This document shows positions 27,843-36,736 of a DNA stretch of 64,000 bases, piece after piece. The notes under the pieces are model-generated. The model saw nothing but the letters and a program-made list of their open reading frames with translations. It was not told where the DNA came from and ran no database searches. This stretch comes from Natronorubrum daqingense (lineage in GTDB: Archaea > Halobacteriota > Halobacteria > Halobacteriales > Natrialbaceae), in the NCBI RefSeq assembly GCF_001971705.1, contig NZ_CP019327.1, forward strand, positions 310,001 through 374,000, given 5' to 3'. The translations under genes were made by a program, and so were the position numbers. The number at the start of each line of letters is the position of its first letter. Position 1 is the first letter of the stretch.

Positions 27843-28095
27843 CTGCCAGCTCTGCTGCAATCGGCGTTCGTTCGCCGTTTAACGGGGCAACGGGAGTCGA
27901 GCGTCAGCCTCGAGGATCGGAGTAACGCAGGACTTCCGTCAGTCGTCGTCGACTCGCGCACACTGTTTGGACTGGCCAATCATCGATTACGCGCGCGAGT
28001 ATGCAAGCCGGTCGTCCGGATGCGAGAAATCTCATACTGCGTTGTCGAGACGGCCACACCGACTCAAGTGTTCGCTGGCCGGGGTCGGAATCGAG
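27843..28095. other. Intergenic region of 253 bases
   Basis: Contains the promoter of the next gene. The frame is open upstream of the chosen ATG at 28096, but the translation (Arg/Ser/Cys mixed) does not look like protein. No repeat or RNA noted. Confidence 0.4.
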
Positions 28096-29532
28096 ATGGC
28101 AAACGAGAGACCAACCGACGACGGGGACGGGCAACGGCGAATGACGACCGACCCCGAACGAATTCGCGAGTGGGCCGAATCGCGCGAGGCGGTTCCCGTT
28201 TCGACTCACGGCGGCGAGGGGCACGGCCACTCCTTCGCACGGCAGGGTGCGATCGAGGAGGACCACGAAGAGCACACCTGGGACGACTTCATGGAGACGT
28301 TCCGAGACGAGGACCTCGTGTTCGTCTATCACGACGAACCGGCCGCCGGGGACGAACTCGGCCACTTCGAACTGGTCGAGCGCGAAATGGCGTTCGATCG
28401 GGCCTCGATCGGTCGCAGCGAACTCGAGGATCAGCTTCGACAGGGCGAGACGGTGACGACCGAAATCGTCGAGACGCAGGTCGTCGAGACCGAAGTCGTC
28501 GAGCGCGACACGATCGAGAGTTCGGTCGTCGACACCGAACTCACGGAACGACGCGTCGTCGACAGCGAACTGTTGAACCGAGACATCGTGAACACAGAGT
28601 TCGTGAGCGCCGACGTCATCGAGGTGACCACCGACGAATCCCGACTCGAGACCATCGAGGAAATCGAACGCTACATCGTCGAGAGCCGAGTGGTCGACGT
28701 CGACATCGAACAACACGACGAGGTCGAGCGCGACGAGATCCAGACCGACGTCGAACTCGAGAGCGTTCAGCGCTCGATCCTCGAGAGCGACGTGGTTCGC
28801 TCCGACGTCGCCGCCGACGAGGTCGTCGATCGAGAGGTCATCGAGAGCAAGCGCGGCGAAGGCGACACCGTCCAGAGCGAACTGCTCGAACGCCGAACCG
28901 TCGAGGATCAGATCGACGAGCGCTCGATGATGCGCTTTACGCTCGAGGAGACCGAGTTGCTCGAGTCCGAGGTGATCGGCAGCGACCTGCTCGAGGGGGA
29001 GATCATCGACGTCGAGGAGTACGAGTCGATGGAGGCGATAGACGCTCCGGCGACTGGCGGCGTGGCTGGCGGCGAGTCGCTAGCTGGCGGTGATCCGATG
29101 AATGCGGACGAGACGATGGCCGGAGACGAACCGATGGCGGACGACGACGCGACGGCCGACGCGGGTTCCGAGCAACTCGGCGAAGACGAAGCGATGGCCG
29201 AGGTCCCCGCCGAAACGGGAGCCGACGCGGAGCGGGCTGACGAAGCGGGCCCACCCGGAACGGAAGCAACGGGAGCCGCCGGGCCGACCGAACTCTCGGC
29301 GGACGAACAGGGGAAGGCAGTCGTCGACGAGACGGGCGAGCAGGTCGGGATCGTGACGGAAATCGACGCACAGACGGCCTACATCGACCCCGAACCCGGA
29401 CTGACGGATCGACTCAAGGCCCGACTCAACTGGGGTGGCCACGGCGACGACGAATATCCGGTCGACGCCTCGGAAATCACCGAGATCACCGACGAAGAAG
29501 TGATCCTCGAGAGCAGACGCGACGCCGAGTAG
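28096..29532 (+). CDS. Pentapeptide-like repeat protein with PRC-barrel end
   Basis: 478 residues from MANERPTDDGDGQRRM. A N-terminal acidic part contains EEHTWDDFMETFRDEDLVFV. Residues about 117-310 are a long run of five-residue units of the form [TSR][ED][VIL][VI][ED], for example TEIVE TQVVE TEVVE RDTIE and SSVVD TELTE RRVVD; this period of five with a buried centre suggests a right-handed beta-solenoid like pentapeptide repeat proteins, but with acidic edges. A low-complexity Ala/Asp/Glu/Met linker follows (about 320-400), and the last 75 residues (GKAVVDETGEQVGIVTEI to TDEEVILES) look like a PRC-barrel. The function is not known; PRC-barrels bind RNA, cell-division or photosystem partners. 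Confidence 0.75.
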   Translation: MANERPTDDGDGQRRMTTDPERIREWAESREAVPVSTHGGEGHGHSFARQGAIEEDHEEHTWDDFMETFRDEDLVFVYHDEPAAGDELGHFELVEREMAFDRASIGRSELEDQLRQGETVTTEIVETQVVETEVVERDTIESSVVDTELTERRVVDSELLNRDIVNTEFVSADVIEVTTDESRLETIEEIERYIVESRVVDVDIEQHDEVERDEIQTDVELESVQRSILESDVVRSDVAADEVVDREVIESKRGEGDTVQSELLERRTVEDQIDERSMMRFTLEETELLESEVIGSDLLEGEIIDVEEYESMEAIDAPATGGVAGGESLAGGDPMNADETMAGDEPMADDDATADAGSEQLGEDEAMAEVPAETGADAERADEAGPPGTEATGAAGPTELSADEQGKAVVDETGEQVGIVTEIDAQTAYIDPEPGLTDRLKARLNWGGHGDDEYPVDASEITEITDEEVILESRRDAE

Positions 29533-29575: not shown

Positions 29576-32500
29576 CTACCGGCCATTCTGGCTACGCTGG
29601 CCATTCTGGGCGTCGTCGTTCTCTCCGCCATCAGCGACGTAGCGCGCCCAGAGGAGCAACAGCGTCGGCAGGACGAGGATGCTCGAAAGAAATGCGTACG
29701 CGATCGTCAGCGCCGTCACGAAGCCGAACTGGCGAACGGCGGGGAGGAACGCGAGCGCGAGCGTGGTGAAGCCGAGCGTTGTCGTCGCGACGCTTCCGAA
29801 CAGCGCGCCACCCGTGCCGGCCATCGTTCGCGAGAGCGCGTCGGCGTCGTCCTCCCCTCTCCGACGCTCGAGGACGAAGCGCGAACTCACGTGGATGTTG
29901 TAGGCGACGCCGAGTCCGATCGTGAGGCTCGTGACGGTGCCCGTCAGGACGTTGAACGGGATTCCCAGCAGCGACATCGTGCCGACGATCCAGCAGACAG
30001 CGAGGGCGACCGGGAGCACCGTCACGATGCCGAGGGAGGCACTGTGGCCGGTGAGGTAGTAGGCGGCCGTCAGAAACCCGAAAACAGCGACGAGGGTGAC
30101 CACCAGGCTCTCGAAGATTCCGTCCAACAGACTCTCCTCGACGGTGTGCTCGACGATCTGCGGGCCGGTCGCGCTCGCGTTCCAGCGCTCGTCCGCGCCA
30201 CCGTCGTCGACCGTCGCCGCAGCCGATTGCACGTCGCTCGTCACCGTTTCGGCCGGCGCGTCTCCGCGAACAGAGACGAGCAGGCGAACCGACTCGTACT
30301 CGCCGTCGCTCGTGCGGTGGATCACTTCGCTCGCAGCCTCGGGATCGCTTTCGAATAGCTGGTCGTACAGCCCTTCGAGGTTCTGGTTTGGAACCCCGTC
30401 ACCCGTCCGATCGGCGAGGTGGAACGACGCGTTGAACGACTCGTCGTCGGCGGCGACGGACTCCATCACCGTCAGCGGATCCTGGTCGTCCGCGCCGGCC
30501 GAGTGCGCCGCGTCGGTCGACTCGCTCTCGCTCACCTGCGTCCGTGCCGAATCGACTCGCTCGAGCGTGTCGCCGTCCGTCACGTCGCCCGCGACGACGA
30601 TTTGGGCCTGTGCGTCCCGGTACTCGAAGCCGTCCTCGAGTGCTTCGTAACCGGCCGTCGCCTGATAGTCTCGGTCGGTCGGCGAAACGTGTTCGGTCCA
30701 CGACGGATTCTCGGCGAGAAGGTCGTCCTCCTCGAAGTTAGTGTCGACCGAACTCGCCGCGTAGAGGCCGCCCGCGGTCACCGCGAGGACGAGGACGAGG
30801 ACGACGAGCGGCGCGACGCGAGCCGCGTTCGCGCCGACCGACAACCCGCTGCGAACGGGGCCGTCTTCGATTCCGAGAGCGGGTCGCCGTCGCTCGAGGC
30901 CGCGTCGCTCGAGGGACTCGTCGAGTTCGATCTTGACCGCCGGCATCAGGCCGCCGAAGACGAGCAGTGCCGCGACGATGCCGACCGTGCTCACGAGGCC
31001 GAACTCGCGAAGCGGTGCGATCGGGCTCACGAGATTCGACAGAAAGCCGATCGCCGTCGTCGCGGTGACCCAGAGGAGGGCGACGCCGACACCGGTAAGC
31101 GCGAGCGCCATCGCCGGTCGAACGGCCGTGGCCGCCGTCTCGCGTGACTCGCGATGGCGCATGAAGACGTGGATTGCGTAGTCGATCGAGAGCCCGATCA
31201 AGAGGACGGGAATCGCCACGAAGAGTTGATTGAACGCGATCCCGGCCCAGCCCATGAATCCGAGCGTCCAGACGAGCACCGTTCCGATGCCGGCGACGCC
31301 GAGTGCGACCTCGATCGGATCGCGGTAGGCGACGGCCAGCGAGACGAGGACGACGCCGAGTGCGAGCGGGCCGACGAAAATCAGGCTGTCGACGATCGCC
31401 CGGTCGATCTCGTCCGAGACGATTCCGGGGCCAAAGACGACGTATTCACCGCCGCTCGCGTCGCCGTGATCCGCTGCCAGTTGCTGTACGGCGAGTTCGC
31501 TCTCGACGAGTCGGTCGCCGGTCGAATCCGTATTCGTATCCGCGTTCACGTCCCCGTTCACCTCTCCGTCCACTCCCGCCTGTGCGTGCCTGAGAACGGT
31601 CAGTCGCTTCTCTGCCTGTGTGTCTCCAACCTCGTACGACGAGGGGAGCAACGTCGTCGCGAACTCGTCGACGGCCGCCGACTCTTCGTCGACGAGTTCC
31701 TCGAGGTGGCGTTCGTAGGCCGACTCGTCTATCGACTCGAGCGCCGCGATCTGTTCTTCGAGCGGAGGCTGGTCGAGAGATTCGAGGTCGTCTCGTCGCT
31801 CCTCGAGTTCCCGCTGTTCCGCCCACAACTCGTCGTACTCGTCGCCGAGCACGCCGACCGTGCCGTCGGTGTACGCCGTCTCGAGGTCGACCTCGAATCG
31901 ATCCATTCGTTCGTCGTACGCCTCCGTCTCGATCTCGCCGTCCGCGTACGCCCGCTCGGTGGCGTTGATCTCCGATTGGACGGCTCGAACGCTCCCCGTC
32001 GCCCGATCGAACGACTGCGTCTGGTCGTCCTCGAGGTCGGCCGTCGTCTCCTCGCGAACCGACTCGAGTTCGGCGTCGAGTTCGTCCGCGCGGGTCTGAT
32101 ACGTGCTCGAGTCGATCTCGTCGTTCTCGTAAGAGGCGTTTAGCTCCGCGTAGTCGGCTTCGAGATCACGAACCGTCTCGAGGGCCCGTCGCAGATCGGT
32201 TTCGGTTTCGTCGAGTTGATCCGCACGTTCCTCGAGGTCGTCTCTGCGCTCGACGAGCGCGTCGACGTCGTCCTCGCGGAGTATGCTCGTCGCGACGACG
32301 TTTTCGACGCCGATCGTCGGCGAGTCTGCTGCCAGCGTCTCGTTGACGGTCTCGTTTTCGTGCAGTGCCCGTTGGAACTCGAGCGACTCGAGCAGCGACT
32401 CCTTCGCGAGCGCGTCGTCCTCGCTGACGATCACCGCAGTAACCGTCGTGTTCGCGTCCTCTTGGGCCGCGAAGTTCTCGGTCGCGTACTCGAGCGTCTT

Positions 32501-32680
32501 CGTTTCGTCCGTCTCGCTCTCGAATTGCTCGAGCGAGCTATCGTACTCGAGAAACGCGATTCCGACGCCGAAGACGGCCGTGAGGAGAAGAATCGACGCG
32601 ATCACGACCGTCGTGTGCGTCGTAATCGCGTCGACGAGCCGGCTGAACCGCGTCGGCTCGTCCCGTCTCCCCCCGTTCAT
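29576..32680 (-). CDS. RND-superfamily (MMPL-type) exporter with coiled-coil insertion
   Basis: 1034 residues. An N-terminal helix (TTVVIASILLLTAVFGVGIA) is followed by a large extracytoplasmic domain, then six helices around FVGPLALGVVLVSLAVAYR and LLIGLSIDYAIHVFMRHRES (the G-x-x-x-D-Y motif), and a second half with the same layout ending in SLTIGLGVAYNIHVSSRF and LALAFLPAVRQFGFVTAL. This is the two-fold repeat of the HAE3/MMPL branch of RND pumps, which use proton motive force to move lipids or hydrophobic compounds. Residues about 135-330 of the first outer domain are charged heptad-like sequence (long coiled coil). The ATG at 32680 has AGTATACG 30 bases upstream. The gene ends the minus-strand pair that starts with the 34750 protein. 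Confidence 0.88.
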   Translation of the reverse strand: MNGGRRDEPTRFSRLVDAITTHTTVVIASILLLTAVFGVGIAFLEYDSSLEQFESETDETKTLEYATENFAAQEDANTTVTAVIVSEDDALAKESLLESLEFQRALHENETVNETLAADSPTIGVENVVATSILREDDVDALVERRDDLEERADQLDETETDLRRALETVRDLEADYAELNASYENDEIDSSTYQTRADELDAELESVREETTADLEDDQTQSFDRATGSVRAVQSEINATERAYADGEIETEAYDERMDRFEVDLETAYTDGTVGVLGDEYDELWAEQRELEERRDDLESLDQPPLEEQIAALESIDESAYERHLEELVDEESAAVDEFATTLLPSSYEVGDTQAEKRLTVLRHAQAGVDGEVNGDVNADTNTDSTGDRLVESELAVQQLAADHGDASGGEYVVFGPGIVSDEIDRAIVDSLIFVGPLALGVVLVSLAVAYRDPIEVALGVAGIGTVLVWTLGFMGWAGIAFNQLFVAIPVLLIGLSIDYAIHVFMRHRESRETAATAVRPAMALALTGVGVALLWVTATTAIGFLSNLVSPIAPLREFGLVSTVGIVAALLVFGGLMPAVKIELDESLERRGLERRRPALGIEDGPVRSGLSVGANAARVAPLVVLVLVLAVTAGGLYAASSVDTNFEEDDLLAENPSWTEHVSPTDRDYQATAGYEALEDGFEYRDAQAQIVVAGDVTDGDTLERVDSARTQVSESESTDAAHSAGADDQDPLTVMESVAADDESFNASFHLADRTGDGVPNQNLEGLYDQLFESDPEAASEVIHRTSDGEYESVRLLVSVRGDAPAETVTSDVQSAAATVDDGGADERWNASATGPQIVEHTVEESLLDGIFESLVVTLVAVFGFLTAAYYLTGHSASLGIVTVLPVALAVCWIVGTMSLLGIPFNVLTGTVTSLTIGLGVAYNIHVSSRFVLERRRGEDDADALSRTMAGTGGALFGSVATTTLGFTTLALAFLPAVRQFGFVTALTIAYAFLSSILVLPTLLLLWARYVADGGENDDAQNGQRSQNGR

Positions 32681-32731
32681 CAGTCGTGACAACTGTTCGG
32701 AACGCGTATACTTCTTTCAGTTTCTTGTGCG

Positions 32732-34750
32732 TCACGCACGAACCGAGGGGCGGGCAGCGTAGAATCCGAGCGTAACTGCGGCGAGGCTGCCTAACACGAC
32801 GATCACCGCGCCGACGCCGTGCCAGTTGAGTTCGAACGCCTCGCCGCGGTCCAGTTCGGTCTCGAGCAGCGTCTCGACGCGGTCGTAGTCGATTTCGGGC
32901 ACGTCGGCATCTGCTTCGCCGGACGTGGAGACGGTCGTCTCCGACCCGACCTGCTCGCGGTCTCGGATCTCGGCTTCGGTGGGATCTGCGCCCGTGAACC
33001 CGTCGGCGACGACGTAGACGGTACTCGAGCCACCCGTCGTCTCGACGTGGAGTTCGGACGCCGTCAGTTCGTCTTCACCCCCGATCGGGACCGACTCGAT
33101 CGTCGCGTCCGGATCGGCCGCCGCGCCCTCGAGTTCGTACGTCCCGTCGTCGATCGTGAGGTCAGTTTTCGCGAGTTCGGCCGTCTGCACCAGCTCGTCG
33201 ACGCTCGACATCGGGACCACGTCGTCAGTGTCGACTCCCACGTCCCCGAGGCAGAGTTCGACGCCCAACACCGTCCCAACGTCGCCGAGGCCGTCGGGCG
33301 ACCACTCGAGTATCCCGTTCTCCCGGGCCTCAGAGTCGTAGACCACGTCGAGACCGTCTTCGGTCGACTCCGCGTCGAACGTCGCCGTGCGATCGGGCGT
33401 GAGCGCCTCGAGCTCGCGTTCCTCGAGCGCGCTCGCGTGGCGTTCCCAGTTTTCGCTGTCGCTCTCCCAGGTCGCGTCGACCGTCGTCAGGTCGTCCGGT
33501 CGCTCGGCCGTGACGTCCCACGACGTCGTCCGCTTCAGGTCCGTTTCCGCGCGCACCTCGAGCGTCTCCCTGACGTCGTCGAAGCGATCCGCGAGGTCGT
33601 CGTCGACCGACTCGATCGAGTCGGCGAGTTCGACCGTTCCGAGGACGACCTCGTCGTGGGCGTCGGCCTCGAGATCCCACTCGATGTCGGTCTCTTCGCC
33701 GTCCCGGTCGACGGTGAAATGGAGTTCCTCGACGTGCGCCTCGGCGAGTCGGTCCGCCATCGCCTGCGCTTCCGTCTCGTCTAAGTCGGTCTCGGCCTGT
33801 TGCTGGACCAGCGAGACGGCGGCCGCCGCCACCTCGTCCGTGACGCCCGCGTACTCGACGTGGTACTCGTACTCGACGATATTTTGGTCGCCGTCGGCGT
33901 TCTGCTCGCCATCCACGTAGTCGTAAGACTCGATTTCACCGTCGGCCGTCCCGCCCAATCCGACGGCAATACTCGAGTACCGATTCTCGAGGGACTCTCC
34001 GGCGTCCTCGCGCGTCTCCCATCGATCCGTCTCCCAGTCTTCGATGACCCGTCGTTCGCTCACCTCGAGGGAGTAGCCGTCGTCTCGCTCGACGACGGTC
34101 GCCTCGAGCGAATCCGTGCCGGCCGGCACGCCGTCGATCTCGGCCTCGACGAGCGAGAGCGTTCCCGAACTGGTGATCGACTCCGAGGTCGCCTCTAGCT
34201 CTCCGGTCGTCTCGAGTGCGTCGTAATCAGGGTCGTGCTCGGCGACAGTCGCCCGGACGTCACCGCTCGAGGTCGACTCGGCGTCGGTTTGTTCCACGTT
34301 GATGGCCGCCTCGAGGTCCGTAATCGGTGCCGGATCTTCGATCAGTACGTCACCGGTGCTCGAGACGTGCTCGTGGTCTGAGTGCACCGACAGGTCACCG
34401 CTCACGCCGCGTTCGTCCTCGTCGACGGCACCAGTGTAGTGCGTGTACGCGACTCCAGGATCCGTGTCGAGACCGAACTGCCCCTCGAGTGTCGTTCCAG
34501 TCTGGGACGCGTCGTGTGGATAGTCGTACGTGAGCACCGCGTCGCCATCGTCGGACACGTATACCGCTTCGACGTCTTCCGTCGCGTCGATCTCCTCGAG
34601 GATTTCCTCAGGGACCGGTTCGTCCGAGTCAGCGTGTGCGCCAGTGACCCCGATGGCCCCCAGGCTCGTCACGAGGAGTATCCCGACGAGTAGCGCGCTC
34701 GAACGTCCGAAACTGGCCATTCGTGCTGTCGGTTCTAACCCGATCTTCAT
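32732..34750 (-). CDS. Surface protein with signal peptide and C-terminal anchor (paralog A)
   Basis: 672 residues. Signal peptide around SALLVGILLVTSLGAIGVTG (residues about 19-38), then a very acidic, beta-rich ectodomain and one C-terminal helix (WHGVGAVIVVLGSLAAVTLG) with a short Arg-containing tail, so it is anchored by its C-terminus. Segments such as AVYVSDDGDAVLTYDY, EGQFGLDTDPGVAYT and TTSWDVTAERPDDL match the divergent gene at 34841, so the two are paralogs; this copy lacks the PGF motif. It is 51 bases upstream of the RND-type exporter and probably co-transcribed with it. The ATG at 34720 (MASFGRSS) is an alternative start. Confidence 0.78.
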   Translation of the reverse strand: MKIGLEPTARMASFGRSSALLVGILLVTSLGAIGVTGAHADSDEPVPEEILEEIDATEDVEAVYVSDDGDAVLTYDYPHDASQTGTTLEGQFGLDTDPGVAYTHYTGAVDEDERGVSGDLSVHSDHEHVSSTGDVLIEDPAPITDLEAAINVEQTDAESTSSGDVRATVAEHDPDYDALETTGELEATSESITSSGTLSLVEAEIDGVPAGTDSLEATVVERDDGYSLEVSERRVIEDWETDRWETREDAGESLENRYSSIAVGLGGTADGEIESYDYVDGEQNADGDQNIVEYEYHVEYAGVTDEVAAAAVSLVQQQAETDLDETEAQAMADRLAEAHVEELHFTVDRDGEETDIEWDLEADAHDEVVLGTVELADSIESVDDDLADRFDDVRETLEVRAETDLKRTTSWDVTAERPDDLTTVDATWESDSENWERHASALEERELEALTPDRTATFDAESTEDGLDVVYDSEARENGILEWSPDGLGDVGTVLGVELCLGDVGVDTDDVVPMSSVDELVQTAELAKTDLTIDDGTYELEGAAADPDATIESVPIGGEDELTASELHVETTGGSSTVYVVADGFTGADPTEAEIRDREQVGSETTVSTSGEADADVPEIDYDRVETLLETELDRGEAFELNWHGVGAVIVVLGSLAAVTLGFYAARPSVRA

Positions 34751-34840
34751 ACGTGTTTGGACGTTCGTATCACGACTGCGTTGTCACTTACTATCAATAT
34801 ATTCGAAAGTAACATATAGGTGAATGACAATTATCCAATA
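34751..34840. promoter_or_regulatory. AT-rich divergent promoter of the surface-protein pair
   Basis: The region is clearly AT-richer than its surroundings (ACTATCAATATATTCG and ACATATAGG). ACATATAGG at 34811-34819 lies about 26 bases before the ATG at 34841, and CGTGATACG (minus strand) about 20 bases before 34750. A shared controller of both paralogs is plausible. Confidence 0.5.
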
Positions 34841-36736
34841 ATGGGAAGGGACTTTGTTAGTGGTGCAACGGTTAGCCGTATAGGTGCAGTCATGATGGCT
34901 CTCATCATGATCACGTCGGTCGCAGCAGGCACTGCTGTGGCAGACACAGGGATGGAGGAAGCCGAGCCTGCAGACGAGGTGTTCGTCGACGACGACGGTG
35001 GGGCCGTTCTGGTCTACGACGAAGACGACGGGATCGACGACGAAGCGAGCGGTGAGTTCGGCGTCGATATCTCCGAGTCGGTGGCGTACGCGCTTGTCTC
35101 CGACGAGATCGAAGACGACGTCTCCGCTGCGTTCTCAATGGTCCTCGACAACGATGGCCTCGAGTCCTCAGGCTCGCTCGCCGCCGACCGACCGGCTGAC
35201 GTCGAAGACTTCTCGATGGACGTCACTGGCGAGCAAACGGAGTCGACGAACGACTTCGACGCGAACCTCGAGTTAGCACTCGCCGCCGCCGACTCCCCGC
35301 CGGAAGCGACCGCCGACGAGTCCGGCTCGACCAGTGGCTCTGTCGTCATGGGTGCTGATGATCTCGCCACGCAGGGCGAGTTCGACGTCTCACACAACGC
35401 ACCCCCTGATTCACCCGAGATCGGTCTCGACATGGAGATCACGGAGACGGGTGACGATTACACGCTCGAGATGGCTCAACAAAACGAAATCGTCGAGTTC
35501 GAAACCGACGACTGGGACACCGAGGACGCCGCACAGGCGACGCTCGAGGACGAGTTCGAAGTCGTCGCACAGGACCTCGGTAGCGACGTCACGGTCACCA
35601 TCCACGACTACGACTTCGAGGATGACGTCAACGCGATGGGCGACGGTCACCTCGATATCGAGTACACGATCGAACTCGAGAACGCCAAAGACGGCCTCGA
35701 GCAACTCGTCGCGGAGGATCTCGCGACCGATCCGACGCTCGACGTAACGCAGAGCGAGGCCGACGAGATCGCCGCGGATATCCTCGACGCCGAACTCGAG
35801 ACGTTCGAACTCGCGTTCGCCGAGGACGACACGACCGTCGACGGTCACTGGGACGTCGCGTTCAGTGGCTTCGAATCGTCCGCCTACGCGGTGATGGATC
35901 TCGCCGAAGCGAGCGACGAGATGGACGACGACGCGGCCGACGAGTTCGACGACTACGAGGAGATGTACGAGGCCCAGGCAGCGGCCGACCTCACCGAGAC
36001 GACCGAGTGGGACGTGACGTTCGACGCAGCCGGCGGATCGCAAGAATTCGTCGTCGACGTCACCTCCGAGGCGGACAACTGGGACGCCTACACCGACGAA
36101 CTCGCGGACCGCGATATCGATTCGCCCGAGTTCGTGATCGACGCCCACGCGGAAACGGTCGGCGACGAAATCGATCTCGAGATGGGCCTCGAGGTCGGAC
36201 AGGAGGCGATCATCGAAACGGCGATCACGACGATGGCTGACGACCTCCAGAACGACCCGACCGTCGATGACGACGCCCTCGAACTCGTCTCCGCCTTCGA
36301 CGAGGCCGACCTCGAACTCATGCAGTTCGATCTCGACATGGACGACGGAACGGTTACCTTCGAAACCGGTGCCTCCTTCGACGACCTCGGTGCGTTCGAG
36401 GCCCACCTCGAGGACGGCTACCACGGCCTGACGGTCGAACACATCTACGGCGACGACGACGCCGGCTACGTCTACGTCACCGACATGGCCGACGACGATG
36501 ACGACGAAGACGATATCCGCGAGCACTCGATCGTCGCGGACGACACCGAGATTCACATGCCGGGCGACTGGGACGAAGATCACCCGCGACTCGACATGGA
36601 GGAAGTCGACAACTACCTCGAGACCGACGTAGGCGACGACGAGTCGGACGATGACGACTCGATCCCCGGCTTCGGCGCAGTCGCCGCCCTCGTTGCCCTC
36701 CTCTCGATAGCGATGTGGGCGCGTTTCGATCGGTAA
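34841..36736 (+). CDS. Secreted PGF-CTERM surface protein (paralog B)
   Basis: 631 residues. The start at ATG 34841 (MGRDFVSGATVSR) gives a signal peptide with core GAVMMALIMITSVAAGTAVA; a GTG at 34820 would be an extension of seven residues. The mature protein is very acidic and beta-rich, with internal segments similar to paralog A (VFVDDDGGAVLVYD, EGEFGVDISE-type, TTEWDVTFDAA). It ends SIPGFGAVAALVALLSIAMW followed by Arg, a PGF-CTERM signal (PGF at 609-611), so it is probably processed by archaeosortase and lipid-anchored. The lack of any catalytic motif suggests a structural or partner role for the exporter of the same locus. Confidence 0.8.
   Translation: MGRDFVSGATVSRIGAVMMALIMITSVAAGTAVADTGMEEAEPADEVFVDDDGGAVLVYDEDDGIDDEASGEFGVDISESVAYALVSDEIEDDVSAAFSMVLDNDGLESSGSLAADRPADVEDFSMDVTGEQTESTNDFDANLELALAAADSPPEATADESGSTSGSVVMGADDLATQGEFDVSHNAPPDSPEIGLDMEITETGDDYTLEMAQQNEIVEFETDDWDTEDAAQATLEDEFEVVAQDLGSDVTVTIHDYDFEDDVNAMGDGHLDIEYTIELENAKDGLEQLVAEDLATDPTLDVTQSEADEIAADILDAELETFELAFAEDDTTVDGHWDVAFSGFESSAYAVMDLAEASDEMDDDAADEFDDYEEMYEAQAAADLTETTEWDVTFDAAGGSQEFVVDVTSEADNWDAYTDELADRDIDSPEFVIDAHAETVGDEIDLEMGLEVGQEAIIETAITTMADDLQNDPTVDDDALELVSAFDEADLELMQFDLDMDDGTVTFETGASFDDLGAFEAHLEDGYHGLTVEHIYGDDDAGYVYVTDMADDDDDEDDIREHSIVADDTEIHMPGDWDEDHPRLDMEEVDNYLETDVGDDESDDDDSIPGFGAVAALVALLSIAMWARFDR

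Follow-up and report, generated by a model that had tools for sequence, protein, structure and literature searches.

Mycobacterial MmpL pumps, of the resistance-nodulation-division (RND) type, are paired with extracytoplasmic lipid-binding proteins such as LppX and LprG. To our knowledge, hardly anything is known of the cargo and carriers that cross the space under the archaeal S-layer. In Haloferax volcanii the RND permease HVO_A0467 has a secreted partner, HVO_A0466, encoded upstream of it (PMC11349517). That report describes the system as including the most induced protein under iron starvation and as a proposed siderophore exporter, HVO_A0466 as glycosylated with four immunoglobulin (Ig) folds predicted by AlphaFold, and the association of RND proteins with secreted partners as widespread (21 genomes). 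In Methylococcus, BstA, BstB and BstC transport sterols (PMC10942540). Here we analyse a 64,000-nucleotide stretch of Natronorubrum daqingense (contig NZ_CP019327.1, positions 310,001 to 374,000; hereafter the window) that holds an MMPL-type RND pump gene, a gene directly upstream for a surface protein (A) and a divergent gene for a paralog of A (B). The mycobacterial pairs share the general plan of an RND pump with an outer lipid binder, the binders there being lipoproteins with a closed pocket. BstABC and the hopanoid transporter HpnN likewise combine an MMPL-type pump with separate binding proteins, but are bacterial and have an outer-membrane part, other binding-protein families and a known substrate. 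An earlier note on this stretch knew of no such named system; the Haloferax pair is one, in that one operon joins a haloarchaeal RND pump to a secreted protein, anchored in the membrane at its C-terminus, whose gene lies directly upstream, although this Ig-type partner is unlike A and B and the system has no PGF-CTERM paralog (PMC11349517). Since A and B show no profile relation to partners of the Haloferax type, we regard the trio as a similar arrangement whose partners are unrelated: the pump is linked here to two proteins from a surface family that otherwise goes without pumps, and by profile comparison this is a second partner family for haloarchaeal RND pumps.

The earlier note had proposed a search for a conserved neighbourhood, and one was found: the three genes occur together in seven of the 125 genomes of the window's family, spread over four genera and two gene orders. 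These are four genomes of Natronorubrum (genus g1; G000, G001, G003 and G008), Halostagnicola sp. A56 (G073), G036, and Natronolimnohabitans sp. A-GB9 (G139). At the five Natronorubrum and Halostagnicola loci B diverges from A and A precedes the pump; in G036 the order is pump-A-B on one strand, and the same order, with the same downstream gene, fits two contig ends in G139. A adjoins the pump in all seven, and at five of them it is a secreted protein with a C-terminal helix encoded directly upstream of the RND gene, the pump coming first in the other two. One trio lies on a 357-kb plasmid (Natronorubrum aibiense), whose record annotates A as ‘hypothetical protein’, B as ‘PGF-CTERM sorting domain-containing protein’ and the pump as ‘MMPL family transporter’.

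The A/B family itself is far wider than the trio. A BLAST-type search with A recovered it in 24 of 61 relatives, and profile searches recovered it in 74 of 125 genomes at the level of the window's family and in 72 of a draw of 293 at that of the order; across 196 genomes drawn from the phylum, only members of the same order gave full matches, and the other, weak matches covered just the PGF-CTERM end or short C-terminal stretches. We read 104 family loci from 97 genomes, in most cases with flanks of about 8 kb (one flank was shorter at L033, with 17 bp, at L099, with 66 bp, and at L210, with 345 bp), with at least one locus for each of the 74 family-bearing genomes of the window's family and with a few second copies of genus g26 and the main copy of G095 left out. 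An RND gene was found at seven of these loci, all of them trios, and the remaining 97 had none in the stretch read, a count that includes L099, the B gene of the G139 trio at a contig end. The earlier note would have abandoned its proposal had the paralogs lain apart from any RND gene in most genomes. This is the case for the family as a whole and not for the sub-clade of A, so that the family is mostly pump-free with one sub-clade joined to one pump clade. The same counts rule out that an A/B pair is always tied to a pump, and pump-free genomes with two copies, either in tandem (G061, G065), with a distant copy (G034, G091-G096) or otherwise (G098, G103, G104), rule out that a second family copy implies one.

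Phylogenetic reconstruction indicates a shared history of the three proteins. The trio pumps, all seven, group in a single clade apart from 24 other pumps (support 99/98; 98% of bootstrap trees), the seven A proteins form one clade (100/99) within a larger group of pump-free relatives, and the seven B proteins form one clade that also holds two Natrialba B proteins without A or pump. Judged by eye, the branching order is alike in all three trees, with G036 and G139 together, then G000 and G003, then G073, G008 and G001. The Halostagnicola copy (G073) falls among Natronorubrum in the pump tree (97/93) and the B tree (100/99), that fork being open in the A tree. Together with the plasmid copy and the presence of the trio in only 4 of the 10 genomes of the window's genus, this placement suggests that the three genes have been transferred or lost together, as a unit. 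A and B appear to derive from the pump-free haloarchaeal surface-protein family and to have been recruited once to this pump clade. In Natrialba species (L107-L112) a B-type gene that falls inside the clade of trio B proteins stands alone, without A and without a pump, and is either the source of the trio B or a remnant after loss.

No A/B-family gene was found beside the closest non-trio pumps (0 of 20 loci), beside pumps of 850-890 amino acids (0 of 10) or beside pumps of mostly 800-840 amino acids (0 of 12). The 20 closest pumps lie mostly next to genes for a TrmB-like regulator and a metallo-beta-lactamase (MBL)-fold protein, neighbour names having been assigned by eye, and the window genome has two further MMPL genes, both without a surface partner. 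Among the 12 loci of this last, shorter group of pumps, nine have an upstream surface-protein gene abutting the pump; four such genes were scanned and all matched NEW3, most also CARDB (Pfam), neither of which A and B match. Comparison of the A/B profile with that of the nine upstream genes, a set that does not include HVO_A0466 itself, gave an hhalign probability of 0.6 and E 0.092 over 28 columns, which rules out A as a member of that partner family. The A/B profile likewise had no match at E 10 among the genes of 22 related-pump loci, and no Ig-type Pfam domain was found among 31 family members. At L183-L191 the RND genes are preceded at 0-8 bp by CARDB/NEW3-type surface proteins, with a divergent TetR- or TrmB-like regulator in most, so that additional genera show the layout of HVO_A0466/A0467.

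A and B align over nearly their full length (29% identity over 628 alignment positions, E 7e-34), a similarity that places their paralogy, proposed in the earlier note, far beyond chance; a whole-genome search with A found the two to be the only family members in the window genome. Of the shared segments cited there, TSWDVT (A) and TEWDVT (B) do correspond, whereas the second pair is shifted by one strand: the counterpart in B of AVYVSDDGDAVL (A) is EVFVDDDGGAVL and not AVLVYDEDDG. Hydropathy indicates an N-terminal and a C-terminal hydrophobic stretch in A, and the C-terminal helix earlier taken as its anchor is kept. The PGF motif has no Pfam or NCBIfam match in A and is absent from the trio A copies in a C-terminal alignment; no other Pfam or NCBIfam family matches A either. 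B ends in a PGF-CTERM signal above the cut-offs of both PF18204 (23.1 bits) and TIGR04126 (30.8 bits), and archaeosortase A (ArtA) is encoded in the window genome (TIGR04125, 328 bits), in support of B as a predicted ArtA substrate, which would be lipid-anchored. Besides this signal no Pfam domain was found in A or B, and among the 31 relatives PGF-CTERM is the only recurrent Pfam match (13 of 31). Pump-free relatives of A (L037, L038, L042, L043) also lack the PGF motif, ruling out that its loss accompanies the pump. Family members are fast-diverging surface proteins (mean identity 37-40%) of which no description was found in the openly accessible literature searched, and we regard them as an undescribed surface-protein family.

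The pump matches MMPL PF03176 (E 5e-31, 108 bits, curated cut-off 20.5), with two MMPL stretches by Pfam and two long loops by hydropathy. Its best NCBIfam model is TIGR00921 (HAE3) at 192 bits, short of the curated cut-off of 351.9 for HAE3, and its matches to the HpnN (112 bits) and BstA (37 bits) models are weak, far under the cut-offs. In the aligned pump relatives the Asp of transmembrane helix 4 (TM4) is retained and that of TM10 is almost always replaced by Ala (Table 1). We presume the TM4 Asp to be the proton relay, as in MmpL and HpnN. As read from the alignment, this presumed relay is one-sided throughout the pump clade and not trio-specific, and the TM10 Ala, being general among the relatives, was rejected as a hallmark of the trio pump.

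AlphaFold2 models built from 20 sequences were of middling quality (pLDDT 70 and pTM 0.63 for A, 73.5 and 0.64 for B). Both comprise about 25 strands, for the most part twelve long ones in a meander, after which come hairpins with helix pairs, and the sheets are polar and acidic outside. In the family average the strands are apolar on one face and polar on the other (mean face difference 2.66 vs 1.25 in shuffles, with 0 of 1000 shuffles as high). In a Foldseek search of the PDB the first nine rows for A and the first ten for B were all Fenna-Matthews-Olson (FMO) proteins, which wrap pigments (E 2e-5 to 1e-3). A second aligner (VIA) also placed FMO proteins in the eleven best rows for A (Z 4.7-5.2 over 196-218 residues, root-mean-square deviation 5.9-6.9; next row 3.5), and for B its FMO rows (Z 4.1-5.3) were level or mixed with unrelated chains. 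All these values fall under the aligner's own yardstick of Z 8, below which a match may reflect a common arrangement, and the global TM-scores of the FMO matches are at most 0.2. The likeness is one of fold only: no FMO Pfam family (presumably PF02327) matched at E 1 among the 31 members, and the profile found no FMO chain at E 10 among PDB sequences, where only weak matches to gp41 and a designed protein appeared, in helical stretches. A viral fold library gave no match at E 0.001. We treat the FMO match as a lead for a cargo-wrapping sheet, too weak to claim as a finding. That A and B are the first haloarchaeal FMO-like beta-wrap carriers enclosing a lipid, isoprenoid, quinone or carotenoid outside the cell membrane, with the RND pump loading membrane-held A and A passing the hydrophobic cargo to lipid-anchored B, seems distinctly improbable; if true, such a handover would give archaea their own version of MmpL/LppX or NPC1/NPC2, built of unrelated parts.

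Our preferred reading, which we hold tentatively and would place slightly below an even prospect, is that the trio is an export unit. By analogy with MmpL, HpnN and BstA, the proton-driven pump would carry hydrophobic or amphiphilic molecules from the membrane outward. A would be translated from the mRNA that it shares with the pump, stay in the membrane through its C-terminal helix and dock on the outer domains of the pump as a dedicated partner. B would be cleaved by archaeosortase A, become attached to lipid, and take over or present the cargo under the S-layer. The long one-sided beta-sheet predicted for both would suit wrapping such a cargo. This reading is favoured by the persistence of the three genes across genera and changed gene order, by the congruent trees, and by the lack of A/B genes at the other pump loci. 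We also count for it the 4-bp overlap of the A stop and pump start in N. aibiense, the apparent movement of the three genes as a block, the presence of ArtA, the one-sided strands and the precedents of HVO_A0467/A0466 and BstABC. Several points weigh the other way. Since most family loci have no pump nearby, A and B have an earlier role, not necessarily in transport; the PGF-less pump-free relatives indicate that a membrane anchor like that of A does not single out pump-linked proteins; and any beta-sheet that packs against a core would have one-sided strands. The trio is patchy in both genus and family, no substrate-making gene is conserved beside it, and the conserved divergent promoter could mean co-regulation only. 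The linkage, the paralogy, the anchors as recognised by motif and the shared history are shown by the data; contacts between the pump and A or B, the class of cargo, the sequence of handover and export itself are steps that we infer, and the lipid or surface polymer suggested earlier as cargo is a guess. The trio is a defined, deletable unit in which the pump, the membrane-held partner and the lipid-anchored partner can each be tested singly.

It is possible, though on balance rather unlikely, that A is an analogue of HVO_A0466 which binds no cargo and serves as a stalk or scaffold holding or aligning the pump in the pseudo-periplasm, B being a free S-layer-associated paralog. The polar, acidic outer surface of the sheets would suit this, as would the upstream genes abutting the shorter pumps and the layout shared with HVO_A0466/A0467 of signal peptide, C-terminal helix and a position directly upstream of the RND gene with short gaps or overlaps. 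Against it, the partner families are unrelated by the profile comparisons above, and the retention of B is left unexplained. A linkage that is regulatory or historical, i.e. a shared promoter and a mobile block without physical partnership, is less likely still: the divergent promoter, plasmid copy and patchy spread are what it would predict, but the three genes stay together despite a gene order that differs between the two groups, the trees are congruent and A always adjoins the pump. That A and B are surface sensors or decoys (e.g. phage or bacteriocin-like receptors), with the pump for self-protection, would accord with their fast divergence but is hardly credible; no defence or toxin gene was found among the neighbours read.

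The three open frames of the locus lie as described in the earlier note, with the pump, A with its C-terminal helix and the divergent B (Table 1). A ends 39 bp upstream of the pump, and the 69 bp between A and B are AT-rich (38% GC vs 62% in the window, with 0.18% of window 69-mers as low), in keeping with the shared promoter proposed there. Upstream of B, CGAAA and ACAT columns are invariant in an alignment of the five divergent loci, two of them near-identical; we read this block (CGAAAGTAACATATA) as a putative B recognition element (BRE) and TATA box. Its distance to the inner ATG of B suits such a box followed by a leaderless start, and the annotated ATG of A coincides with the AT-rich box of A in other loci, which suggests, from the alignment, that the inner ATGs are the real starts of both genes. 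Starts came from a home-made gene caller and are rough.

Table 1. Features of the pump-A-B locus (window coordinates)
Feature	Position	Strand	Basis and remarks
MMPL/HAE3-type RND pump	29576..32692	-	1038 aa, PF03176 match; listed with a TTG start, the ATG at 32680 being a possible inner start
Surface protein A	32732..34750	-	Open frame; likely true start 34720 (Met11)
C-terminal hydrophobic helix of A, residues 641-667	32750..32830	-	Hydropathy and C-terminal alignment; without PGF motif
Surface protein B, paralog of A	34820..36736	+	Open frame; likely true start 34841 (Met8)
PGF-CTERM sorting signal of B (predicted), residues 612-632	36653..36715	+	TIGR04126 30.8 bits, cut-off 24.5
Divergent promoter region, between inner starts of A and B	34721..34840		Central 69 bp of 38% GC; partly conserved in five loci
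BRE/TATA-like motif CGAAAGTAACATATA	34804..34818	+	37-23 bp before inner B start
TM4 Asp of GLSIDYAIH, pump residue 504	31181..31183	-	Asp in 31/31 aligned relatives
TM10 position of GLGVAYNIH, pump residue 930, Ala	29903..29905	-	Ala in 30/31, Asp in 1/31; the TM4 half has Asp

Pump-free family genes (L037, L116-L120, L122, L124, L125 and others) are often divergent from a tRNA methylthiotransferase-like gene (MARYHIETYGCTSNRGES...), which is an old conserved neighbourhood and may point to the original setting of the family. A distant, strongly diverged second copy without PGF tail lies beside cytochrome oxidase genes at L090, L091 and L092 (G095, G091 and G034; genus g26, Natrialba), the three read of the distant copies in G034 and G091-G096. 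At L088 and L089 (G061, G065) a pump-free tandem duplication includes one copy with an altered C-terminal signal, and dispersed copies at L095-L098 (G103, G104) have ABC-2-like genes and short repeated genes as neighbours and look as though mobile DNA had carried them there. A frame of 521 amino acids (window 27967-29532) adjoins the pump in the window and in G003 and is not kept at the other trio loci read; it contains numerous short repeats rich in valine and glutamate (VESRVVDVDIE...) and its end is PRC-barrel-like.

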